A stretch of 64,000 nt of DNA, taken from Pelobacter sp. GTDB lineage: Bacteria; Desulfobacterota; Desulfuromonadia; Geobacterales; Pseudopelobacteraceae. Location: the NCBI GenBank assembly GCA_030824515.1, contig JAVBXN010000009.1:1-64000 (forward strand), in the 5' to 3' direction. The first letter of the stretch is position 1. Each line of letters begins with the position of its first letter. This document shows, piece after piece, positions 3,576 through 27,904 of this stretch. The translations under genes and the position numbers were made by a program. The notes beneath the pieces are model-generated. The model was not told the origin of the DNA and did not search any database. It worked only from the letters and a program-made list of their open reading frames with translations.

Positions 3576-4781
3576 ATGGCCGGTTTTTCGCCCAGGGTGC
3601 TGTCGGTCAGCACTCCCGGTCAGGCCAGGGCCGAGCTTGAACGTGTCGGTGTGGATGCCGGCGGCTTGGGCATGATGAGCGGCAAGATGTTGACCCGTTG
3701 TATTCAGCTGCCTGGTCTGCAGTGCCGTCAGGCCAACATACTCAAACAGGAAATGTTGTCTCTGGGGGGGGATGCCGCGGTTGCACGCGGCACGGTGGCC
3801 TGCAGCATAAACGAAACAGATGTGATCCTGATTGGGACTGATAAGCAGCTGTTGCAGCTCTGTGACAAATTGAAGGCGCAACCATTCGACTTGCCGGGCT
3901 TGGCAATCGAACTCGGTAAGCTTCTGGTCAACATCAAACAACCTCCGCAAAGATGGGTGACATCCCGTCGCGAGTTTTCACTCGATCGCCCGTTGATAAT
4001 GGGCATTCTCAACCTGACACCGGATTCATTCTCGGACGGCGGGCGTTTTATCGACCCCGGACTTGCCGTCGAGCATGCCCTGCTGATGGAGGCCGAGGGA
4101 GCCGACATCATCGATATTGGCGGTGAGAGCACTAGACCAGGATCTGTGCCTGTTCAGGCCGATGAGGAGTCCGCTCGAATCATCCCGGTTATCGAACGCC
4201 TATCCAATGTTCTTAACTGTGCAATCTCCGTGGACACCTGGAAGAGTGACGTCGCCGACCGCGCTCTCTCGGCCGGGGCGGAAATAATAAATGATATCAG
4301 CGGTTTCAGCTTCGACCCGGGAATGGCTGCCGTCGCGGCCGGGAGCGGCGCCGCCGCCGTGCTGATGCATACCCGGGGCAAGCCGGATCAGATGCAGAAA
4401 AATACCGGTTACTCGGATCTGATCACAGAAATTGTCAGGGGTTTGCAAAGTTCAGTTACACTTGCGTTGGAAGCGGGCGTAGAACCGTGTCGCATCGCAG
4501 TAGACCCCGGCATCGGATTTGCCAAGGATACCGCCGGCAACCTGGAGGTTTTACGTCGCCTCCGCGAACTGACCGGAATGGGAATGCCGGTTCTGGTGGG
4601 CACATCCCGCAAGGCATTCATCGGAAAGATACTGGAGCGAGATTCGGCTTCAGAGCGCCTGTTCGGCACTGCTGCCACGGTGGCTCTCTCGGTGGCCAAC
4701 GGTGCCTCGATCCTGCGGGTGCATGATGTCCGGGCGATGCGTGATGTCGCTGACGTTGCCCATGCCGTTTTACGGCACTGA
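3576..4781 (+). CDS. folP: Dihydropteroate synthase with N-terminal extension
   Basis: Joins p-aminobenzoate to hydroxymethyl-dihydropterin pyrophosphate in folate synthesis. The catalytic TIM barrel starts near residue 138 with MGILNLTPDSFSDGG and continues with DIGGESTRPGS, the pterin-site DPGIGFAKD and the C-terminal GTSRK. At 401 residues it is about 125 residues longer than the E. coli enzyme (about 280). The extra N-terminal part (residues 1-130) has no motif I recognise. The start ATG is one base after the ftsH stop, and its frame is continuous with the barrel, so the extension is probably real. It lies between ftsH and cdaA, which suggests translational coupling. Confidence 0.93.
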   Translation: MAGFSPRVLSVSTPGQARAELERVGVDAGGLGMMSGKMLTRCIQLPGLQCRQANILKQEMLSLGGDAAVARGTVACSINETDVILIGTDKQLLQLCDKLKAQPFDLPGLAIELGKLLVNIKQPPQRWVTSRREFSLDRPLIMGILNLTPDSFSDGGRFIDPGLAVEHALLMEAEGADIIDIGGESTRPGSVPVQADEESARIIPVIERLSNVLNCAISVDTWKSDVADRALSAGAEIINDISGFSFDPGMAAVAAGSGAAAVLMHTRGKPDQMQKNTGYSDLITEIVRGLQSSVTLALEAGVEPCRIAVDPGIGFAKDTAGNLEVLRRLRELTGMGMPVLVGTSRKAFIGKILERDSASERLFGTAATVALSVANGASILRVHDVRAMRDVADVAHAVLRH

Positions 4782-14097: not shown

Positions 14098-14709
14098 TTA
14101 TCTCTTGGTGGTTCTTCTACGCAACAATCCGATCCCGGCCAGGCCCGCGCCCAGCAGCAGGAAGGTGGCTGGCTCGGGTACCGGAGTTGTTGTCGGCTGG
14201 GCAGTTTCCACGCCCAGAATGTGAAATTCGTAGAAGTCACCTCTCGGGCCATTAGACGGTTGATTCCAGCCCAGGATCGGAATCGGAGTCTGGTTGTCAT
14301 AAGCGAAACCGTCGCTTAGGTTGTTACCGTTCGGGCTGTTGTAGAATGTGGAAAGTGTCACGATATACGTACCGGCTGTGAGCAGTTCCGTGAAATAGGA
14401 GTCCCAGCTTCCGTGATCATAGCCAACCCCGTTGGAATCAGTGGTTCCCACTTCATGCCCGTCGTCCTGCCATTGCACCAGGCTTCCGTCGCTTCTCCAG
14501 AGCCCCAGCATCGGGTCAAAATTGCCGTCATCCCAGGATGAGCTGAAAAGTGTCACGTTACCAGTTCCATTGGTGGTGAAAGTATAGCGGAGAATATTAT
14601 TGTGATACTGCATATTCCCGGAGTAGTCGTAGTCCAGCGCATATCCGCTGCCGCAAAGCATCAGTACGGTTGACAATGCCAGCAATAATGAATTGATATG
14701 AGATCTCAT
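14098..14709 (-). CDS. PEP-CTERM sorted exported protein
   Basis: A 203-residue exported protein. It has an N-terminal signal peptide (hydrophobic 5-24, ending CGSGYA) and a beta-rich middle part with many Asp, Gly and Asn. Its C-terminal sorting signal is VPEPATFLLLGAGLAGIG followed by a short basic tail, which in known systems is recognised by exosortase and links export to an exopolysaccharide pathway. The middle resembles DVUA0089-type PEP-CTERM proteins (RYTFTTNGTGNVTLF, then GTYIVTLSTF). I choose ATG 14709 because AAGGAG lies nine bases before it; an ATG at 14718 sits too close to that site. No exosortase gene is in the window. Confidence 0.88.
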   Translation of the reverse strand: MRSHINSLLLALSTVLMLCGSGYALDYDYSGNMQYHNNILRYTFTTNGTGNVTLFSSSWDDGNFDPMLGLWRSDGSLVQWQDDGHEVGTTDSNGVGYDHGSWDSYFTELLTAGTYIVTLSTFYNSPNGNNLSDGFAYDNQTPIPILGWNQPSNGPRGDFYEFHILGVETAQPTTTPVPEPATFLLLGAGLAGIGLLRRRTTKR

Positions 14710-14898
14710 GGCGCGCATCTCCTTAAATAGAACTTAGAAACTTATAAGAGGATAAGCATTAAGCGTGCCGATGTCATAAGGCCTCGTAATTAAAAGAAAA
14801 TATATGTTGATCAAAGTGTGTGATCTGGAATGTAAAAAAAACCGACGAGTTATTGTGTAAACATTTTGATTCGATACTGTTTCTGTCATGCACCGATT

Positions 14899-15944: not shown

Positions 15945-16136
15945 AAAAATTAAAGCCCACCAAATCTGTTCGGTGGGCTTCGGTATCTTATTAATCCTGG
16001 TTACCTTATCAAGGCCTTTTCCGGCGCATTCAACCTCCGGAGTATTGTTGTATTCTATTGTGGTTTGCAGCCTGGCGGAGTTTCTTCCATAGAAGATGTA
16101 AAGCCTCCTTTTGAAGATTTTTACTTCCTTACAGCT
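15945..16136 (-). ncRNA. Unclassified structured RNA, copy A
   Basis: A second copy lies at 27598-27781. Read on the minus strand, both copies share an AT-rich upstream block (TTAATT, then -10-like TATATT at 16143-16148 here). They then share GGAGG or GGGGG closing on GAAGAAACTCC, followed by CTCCGGAGG, GCCGGAA, CCTTGA-AAGGTAAC and ACCGAAGCCC. A final 9-bp hairpin (AAGCCCACC/GGTGGGCTT) is followed by TTTAATTTTTC. The small hairpin before GAAACTCC is CTTC/GAAG here and CGAT/ATCG in copy B. The terminator pair A-T in the stem here is G-C in copy B. Those are compensatory changes. GGA occurs at least five times. The adh start is about 45 bases beyond the terminator. It matches no riboswitch class I can recall. 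Confidence 0.6.
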
Positions 16137-16568
16137 GATTTAAATATAACACCGTGGAATTGAATTAACAGTCTTTTTAAATTATTTTTTTTCGAGTACA
16201 ATCGGAAATTGCTCTCCCGTTTTTAATGATCAAATCCCCCCTGTATTCTGCACGATGAGTGATGCTCTCCAACCAAGGCTCCGATAGATCCAGTCAATTG
16301 TGTCTCATGCTTGGACTTTTGTTTGACCGGAAAGTGCGACGCTGCTGGTGTTTCAGTAATGTCGGAATTTCTACATAGATCCCTTAATAAATTGTAAAAA
16401 AAATCGACAGCTGGACGCCGAAGGAATACATGATTGGGCTTGAATAATGTTAAAATACTTAAACTGTTAAACAAAATATGTTTGGCGTGATCTATGCACA
16501 AAAACGGCTGTAACGAGTCGGGGTTATGGAAGTATCCTGGCGCTGCAACAGGACACCGGGCTGGCAAA

Positions 16569-27578: not shown

Positions 27579-27904
27579 AATGTTTCGAAGGAATGACAAA
27601 TGAAAAGCCCGCCAATTAGTTTAGGCGGGCTTCGGTTTTTGATGTTTACTGTTACCTTTTCAAGGATTATTCCGGCTCCACTTGCCTCCGGAGCGATAAT
27701 GCATCCTGCTTGAATGTACTGCCCGGTGGAGTTTCTTCGATAGCATCGCCCCCCTTTTAACAGTTTTTTCCTTCTCCAACTAAGTTTAATATATCACTGT
27801 CAAATATATAATTAAAGGCTTTTTAATATAAAAATATCGGTATATAATTTCAAGTTTATAGTTTAAAAGTGTCTCGCAATGCAAAACAGCCATACAGGAG
27901 CCTT
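27579..27904. other. Intergenic region with second copy of structured RNA
   Basis: These 326 bases contain the RNA at 27598-27781 and its promoter-like upstream part to about 27840, then a short AT-rich stretch and the ribosome site of the next gene. The hairpin at 27605-27632 can also stop the plus-strand topoisomerase transcript because CGGTTTTT follows it on that side. Confidence 0.5.
27598..27781 (-). ncRNA. Unclassified structured RNA, copy B
   Basis: Homologous to 15945-16136; see that entry for the shared blocks. Here the -10-like box is at 27788-27793 and the terminator stem is AAGCCCGCC/GGCGGGCTT (27605-27632), followed on the minus strand by TTCATTT. The downstream gene on this strand is missing, because the RNA points into the 3' end of the topoisomerase gene. 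That argues for a free-standing RNA rather than a cis riboswitch. GGA occurs about five times (for example TTGGAGAAGGAAA), which would fit a CsrA-binding RNA, but that is only a guess. Confidence 0.6.

Follow-up and report, generated by a model that had tools for sequence, protein, structure and literature searches.

The window, a 64,000-nt stretch of the genome of Pelobacter sp. (Geobacterales; assembly GCA_030824515.1, contig JAVBXN010000009.1, positions 1 to 64,000), contains two related small RNA genes, designated copies A and B, both on the minus strand, which align over about 200 nt and match each other in a genome-wide search with 66% identity (E 9.5e-7) and are therefore homologous. 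Copy A (15945-16136, about 190 nt) extends from just after the -10 box to the T-run of the terminator and has homologues in related genomes; copy B (27598-27781) belongs to the same family by its alignment with A and by the genome search, which bears out the recurrence reported in a first-pass annotation. All features described here are on the minus strand. Copy A is preceded by an upstream promoter box, TTGTACTC (16194-16201; family form TATACTC), by a box at the -35 position, AAAGACTGTT (16167-16176; family form AACAGNCTGTT), both identified through the motif counts given below, and by a -10 hexamer, TATATT, with an extended TGN (16143-16148). Within the RNA are a Shine-Dalgarno (SD) sequence, AAAAGGAGG (16104-16112), which is the 5' arm of a masking helix, a mini-ORF running from ATG to TAG that would encode MEETPPGCKPQ (16055-16090), the segment ACUCCGCC at codons 4-6 (16074-16081), whose CUCC pairs with the GGAG of the SD (helix 1), hairpin 2 (UCCGG...CCGGA, 16020-16041), hairpin 3 (CCUU-GAU-AAGG, 16004-16014) and an intrinsic terminator stem-loop (15953-15980). 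The corresponding elements of copy B are the upstream box TTATATAC (27840-27847), a diverged box at the -35 position, AAAAAGCCTTTAA (27812-27824), TATATT (27788-27793), a G-rich SD region, AAAAGGGGGG (27749-27758), a mini-ORF-like frame with no AUG that runs from AUC to TAA, IEETPPGSTFKQDALSLRRQVEPE (27667-27741), hairpin 2 (27671-27692), hairpin 3 (CCUU-GAA-AAGG, 27655-27665) and the terminator (27605-27632). The TATATT and terminator of each copy had been recognized in the annotation, as had the replacement of one A-T pair of the terminator stem by G-C, which is present (GCCCACC/GGTGGGC in A, GCCCGCC/GGCGGGC in B); what it had overlooked were the SD with its mini-ORF, the promoter boxes farther upstream and the existence of additional copies.

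Comparison between genomes indicates that A and B represent a genuine family of small, free-standing RNAs that has not previously been catalogued. At E<=0.01, DNA searches gave matches in 37 of 58 relatives with copy A as query and in 39 with copy B. Of 112 near-complete genomes from the order, 108 were matched at E<=0.01, and 106 at E<=1e-4, by a covariance model built from 32 sequences, a kind of search that the first-pass annotation had proposed; copies thus occur well outside the genome of origin. That genome has four places scoring at least 46 bits, copy B (140), copy A (136), C43:150916-151084 (123) and C58:18007-18157 (46.5), i.e. three strong copies and one weaker; 13 further matches at E<=1 are weaker, and several of these consist of the terminator only. 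The description of the RNA as present twice therefore stands as regards its recurrence but not as regards the number. In the class Desulfuromonadia, 137 of 200 genomes were matched at E<=1e-4, made up of the 106 from the order and 31 of 88 others; among 25 loci taken from the matches outside the order, nine have, by eye, an SD, a start-like codon (AUC or GUC) and hairpins resembling those of the family. Weaker relatives of the family are present elsewhere in the class. Three loci from another family of the class (L262, L265, L266) lack the ACUCC, and their SD can pair, by eye, with an upstream segment (CCUC-ACAAG-GAGG).

No match to Rfam 15 was obtained at the gathering score in the whole window, which agrees with the earlier statement that the RNA resembles no known class, and in E-value mode the A and B stretches gave only sub-threshold hits to unrelated families (E 0.17-4.2). 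The RNAs in 12 related or look-alike loci also had no Rfam match, nor did eight loci in E-value mode, and membership of a known Rfam family was rejected on the strength of these searches of window, stretches and related loci. A tmRNA or tRNA was likewise rejected, as ARAGORN made no call on the loci of A and B (L009 and L039), nor on the family RNAs in sets of 18 and 60 loci. The literature searched, subscription papers being mostly outside its scope, held no description of this RNA, although absence from print is not established by this. The order is much used in electromicrobiology, and an RNA found in nearly all of its genomes examined, in several copies in many of them, and with its own promoter signature, has no Rfam entry.

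The promoter signature was examined in 133 upstream stretches, a set (used also for the GGA counts below) that includes one locus twice. The motif AGNCTGK is present in 114 of the 133 (shuffled mean, 9.4), and TATAC lies 15-26 nt 5' of it in 76 (shuffled mean, 0.16); the distance from the AGNCTGK box to a -10 hexamer, measured in 101 stretches, is 19-20 nt in 88. The strict pattern has six matches in the genome of A and B (three in the reversed control), the C43 copy being the only family member among them, and the forms preceding A and B are diverged. A regulon sharing this promoter was considered and rejected, as no clear further member was found in this genome. Short palindromes, GGTAGCTACC, CTAGCTAG, GGTAGCGCTACC, GGTGGCGCCACC and GCAACGTTGC, stand just after the -10 box in several lineages (5' ends of L042, L171, L181, L193 and L266), and it is proposed that they represent a 5' hairpin or an operator.

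Folding of single sequences is only modestly better than that of shuffled controls (z of -2.40 for A and -1.23 for B), and the convincing evidence for structure is comparative. Four helices with 22 pairs, the SD GGAG with CUCC, hairpin 2, hairpin 3 and the terminator, were taken from copy A and scored over 77 aligned cores against 500 shuffles. Overall, 95.2% of the cells pair and 15 of the 22 pairs have changes on both sides, in keeping with the compensatory changes inferred earlier from the two copies; none of the 500 shuffles was as high on any of five helix measures, and pairing falls to 30-59% when the partner columns are slid by 1-3 positions. Double changes are found in four of five pairs of hairpin 2, in three of four of hairpin 3 and in six of nine of the terminator, which has 99.9% of its cells paired. 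The SD helix is paired in 96.8% of cells, but double changes occur in two of its pairs only, in one sequence each, so its support comes mainly from conservation. In copy B, an alternative masking helix may exist, as AUCGCUCC (27690-27697) is able to form, by eye, eight base pairs with GGGGCGAU (27745-27752); similar pairing is possible, again by eye, in L042, L044 and L052. The helix covariation, together with the promoter boxes, supports the earlier proposal of a structured RNA with promoter-like and terminator sequences of its own. The small hairpin highlighted in that proposal (CTTC/GAAG in A, CGAT/ATCG in B) is present as written but was rejected as a feature of the family, since an inner stem of at least 4 bp is found in 46 of 95 copies as compared with a shuffled mean of 47.0. 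Tandem C-type RNAs show it, by eye, as a regular feature of their second unit.

An SD followed by the frame AUN-GAN-GAN-ACU-CCN-CCN (M/I-x-[DE]-T-P-P) is present in 95 of 110 single-unit copies. It should be noted that these copies were chosen by a regular expression specifying the SD and ACUCCNCC-like codons, that the 15 misfits include the fourth copy in the Pelobacter genome and one locus, L128, that failed by its SD alone, that 20 C-type tandem loci were left out of the single-unit set, and that the 95 rows correspond to 88 distinct strings. Between the SD and the ACU, 60 AUGs are in frame, none is in frame 1 and 14 are in frame 2, 12 of the latter standing 5 nt before the ACU, across the frame's own NAU-GAN codons; the in-frame AUGs lie 9 nt (40), 12 nt (16) or 15 nt (4) before the ACU. 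By a strict count of the 95 copies, 58 have an in-frame AUG, eight have UUG, 27, copy B among them, have only AUC, AUA or AUU as a start-like codon, and two have none; a looser assignment of 93 copies gives 56 AUG, seven UUG and 30 AUC/AUA/AUU, and in two loci counted as AUC (L052, L138) an in-frame AUG is found two codons upstream. The SD-to-AUG spacing is 10-13 nt in 47 of 56 cases, and the spacing from the SD to AUC/AUA/AUU is 8-9 nt in 22 of 30.

The two codons that precede the ACU are untouched by the regular expression, and over the 95 copies their three positions have entropies of 0.76/0.52/1.69 and 0.46/0.71/1.99 bits; the third positions are the most variable, and Asp and Glu exchange freely at the codon before the ACU. 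Codons 4-6 form part of the expression, and codon 1 was filtered in the inner-hairpin set, so that periodicity at those codons is partly selected; the entropies of the C-type first unit have the same selection bias. The C-type tandem RNAs have a second unit with no AUG, and three-base periodicity of the kind seen before the ACU is absent there. Over the whole ORF, the AUG class has a pN/pS of 0.60, with no value that low among 500 column shuffles, and the AUC/AUA class has one of 0.72, which is not significant (68 of 500 as low). After codon 6 it is 0.89 in the AUG class (239 of 500 as low, with a lower value, 0.70, in shifted frame 1) and 0.84 in the AUC/AUA class (180 of 500), and in the C-type first unit it is 0.37 (2 of 500). 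A conserved full-length peptide is not supported on these grounds, as the signal fades after codon 6, and the resemblance of the later values of the AUG and AUC/AUA classes to shuffles suggests that the start is read, or looks read, and that the rest of the peptide matters little. An ACAUAG element 3' of the ORF is retained also by copies in which it falls out of frame, and in another family of the class one copy (L272) has a conserved stretch that departs from the frame; constraint on the RNA is therefore strong.

The interpretation favored here, to which a probability of about 0.4 is assigned, is that A and B are genes for a free-standing regulatory RNA gated by translation, with a masked SD and a mini-ORF. 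A strong SD would be masked by pairing with codons 4-5 of the RNA's own mini-ORF, and the first six codons (Met or Ile, any residue, Asp/Glu, Thr, Pro, Pro) would provide an acidic-plus-proline start that causes early ribosome pausing or drop-off, of the kinds described as intrinsic ribosome destabilization and polyproline pausing. Initiation by a ribosome and its passage over the start would then decide between alternative folds and so govern the stability of the RNA or its action in trans. In the copies, over a quarter of the total, that have only AUC, AUA or AUU, initiation would be low and conditional, because these are codons disfavored by IF3. If the mini-ORF is translated, the RNA would be a stand-alone version of sensors that, to our knowledge, are otherwise found only in front of genes, and the AUC/AUA starts would be a natural readout of initiation fidelity. 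The comparative analysis shows the homology, conserved promoter boxes, terminator, helices, AUG frame-keeping, periodicity before the ACU and lack of a conserved downstream gene overall; that the RNA is made and translated, that its fold is switched by ribosome behavior and that it acts in trans is what we infer. This interpretation is preferred because Asp/Glu followed by prolines stand in the start, because early acidic and proline residues are reported to lead to ribosome pausing or drop-off in mgtL and in EttA-dependent genes (PMC11282234; PMC8092293), and because IF3 can repress a non-AUG start (PMC5472188).

The main alternative, somewhat doubtful yet the strongest of those considered, is that the RNA is structured and purely noncoding, with AUN-GAN-GAN-ACU-CCN-CCN a motif recognized by a protein or the ribosome and the frame incidental. 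The weakness of peptide selection after codon 6, the substitution of AUC for AUG in many copies, the pairing of the AUC in copy B and in the C-type second unit (by eye), the out-of-frame retention of ACAUAG and the strong covariation are all consistent with this, but it does not account for AUGs that keep to the frame at three different distances and never fall in frame 1, for third-position variability in two codons that were not selected, for UUG in the place of AUG, or for the disappearance of the periodicity from a second unit that has no AUG. Unlikely, though not negligible, is a trans-acting, base-pairing small RNA in which the C-rich ACUCCRCC would be a seed directed against the SDs of target mRNAs and the RNA's own GGAGG would guard that seed. 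Few stretches vary as little as ACU-CC-N-CC, whose sequence is the complement of that of SDs, and the gene is stand-alone with a terminator; however, a generic SD complement would hardly be specific, and the periodicity and in-frame AUGs are left unexplained.

The annotation had suggested a GGA-rich RNA that binds CsrA, and a sponge of the CsrB/RsmZ type is now improbable. CsrB, CsrC and RsmZ are similarly stand-alone, have several hairpins and often occur in multiple copies per genome; A and B have six GGA each, predicted CsrA sites in G. sulfurreducens are listed in PMC5568370, and no CsrB/C-family small RNA has been characterized in that organism according to PMC13407953. However, GGA is not enriched in the family (5.47 per RNA as compared with 5.38 expected from dinucleotide shuffles of 133 RNAs), the conserved GGAG lies in a stem, and FliW has been proposed to counteract CsrA in G. 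sulfurreducens (PMC13407953). The form ANGGA is slightly above the shuffle expectation (2.32 versus 1.78 per RNA in the 133 RNAs).

By their surroundings, the copies look like stand-alone genes with their own promoter and terminator. When ORFs of 100 aa or more are considered, the nearest one downstream shares the strand of the copy in 55 of 124 cases and runs the other way in 65, and four copies have no such ORF. The upstream and downstream neighbors fall into 180 protein clusters; the largest (12 proteins) supplies the downstream neighbor of 10 copies, in every case in opposite orientation. A role as a cis-acting leader or attenuator of the gene that follows, proposed earlier for the alcohol dehydrogenase gene beyond A, is the least probable reading and is rejected for that gene. 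The end of copy A is 45 nt from an ADH_N-domain gene, an alcohol dehydrogenase gene also follows in two close relatives (L010 and L011, by eye), and at the three loci of the fourth-copy class that were seen (L190, L192 and L193, by eye) the RNA precedes a putative DEAD-box helicase gene; however, no downstream gene is conserved overall, about half of the following ORFs and all of the commonest cluster are oppositely oriented, copy B faces the end of a topoisomerase gene, and a second terminator-like stem stands, by eye, before the helicase gene of the fourth copy.

Outside the class, an exact pattern scan (GGAGG-N4-15-AUGGAAGANACUCCNCC) over 84,980 species genomes found 60 loci, of which 38 are Geobacterales-like by title and sequence. 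Thirteen are titled as Alphaproteobacteria or named genera thereof and two more only as Proteobacteria, with short ORFs such as MEDTPPENRLGFA; two loci from Vicinamibacteria and one from Rokubacteria look similar, and there is one match per genome in each of 17 non-Geobacterales genomes. It should be recognized that third-position freedom in these look-alike loci is selected by the exact pattern itself. A relaxed pattern is present in only five of 289 genomes drawn from the alphaproteobacterial class, including L305, which is probably a chance match. L206, L228, L246 and L255 are probably chance matches as well. Ten intergenic RNAs of Alphaproteobacteria, Vicinamibacteria or Rokubacteria with GGAGG...AUGGAAGANACUCCRCC (L242, L243, L254, L225, L210, L215, L221, L241, L256 and L214) have a short ME[DE]TPP ORF and, in most, a terminator (by eye). 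No Rfam match was found over the RNA in ten look-alike loci, seven of them alphaproteobacterial. The likeness of these RNAs to those of Geobacterales is seen in a 30-nt module, and convergence is possible. A broader proposal, that free-standing "ribosome-probe" RNAs with a masked SD, an AUG or IF3-disfavored AUC/AUA and an acidic-Pro-Pro start form a widespread class, maintained throughout Desulfuromonadia and found again as single intergenic RNAs in some Alphaproteobacteria, Vicinamibacteria and Rokubacteria, and that their sole output would be to report on initiation or early elongation to the cell, is speculative and, as stated, rather unlikely.

Several known systems resemble the translation-gated RNA favored here in part. 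SgrS/SgrT is a dual-function small RNA, stand-alone and with a small ORF; in contrast, the family's ORF start is itself in the masking helix and only about the first six codons are kept. The AUU of infC is a non-AUG start under the control of IF3. The GTC of Streptomyces sigR is another (PMC5472188). The family is similar in keeping an IF3-disfavored start codon, but its AUC/AUA would belong to the mini-ORF of a small RNA and alternates with AUG and UUG between copies, and the role of IF3 is putative. The odc1 and other uORF motifs are also structured RNAs in which the ribosome-binding site is masked and a short peptide is conserved, but they lie upstream of fixed genes and have another sequence and clade (PMC8632094). 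The enterobacterial leader ORFs mgtL and mgtQ are also very short, have early acidic residues and prolines, and are overlaid by alternative stems (PMC8092293; PMC11282234). Early acidic and proline residues in a short ORF are found in the family in the 95 of 110 single-unit copies described above; the leader ORFs share their transcript with a Mg2+ transporter gene, on which they act, whereas the family RNA ends at its own terminator, and an adjoining Mg2+ transporter gene was not found as a conserved neighbor among the 180 clusters. The likeness is drawn without any claim of sequence homology.

Some further features of individual loci may be recorded. The third copy in the Pelobacter genome (L194:3017-3185) is convergent with a separate tmRNA gene (3718-4070) about 0.5 kb away, an arrangement for which ARAGORN gave no counterpart in the 60 loci scanned. 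The fourth copy (L193:2900-3160, on C58) lies between a putative SlyD-like FKBP gene and the putative DEAD-box RNA helicase gene, an arrangement resembled by that in L190 and L192, and its frame reads AUC/AUA...VSHQQF in place of TPP. In genus g9 (L171, L178, L179 and L187), a small lipoprotein-like gene has two or three copies on its flanks, within about 1-2 kb, and the second copy has its ACUCC in another frame. In the window, a PEP-CTERM protein gene (14098-14718, minus strand) adjoins the alcohol dehydrogenase gene.
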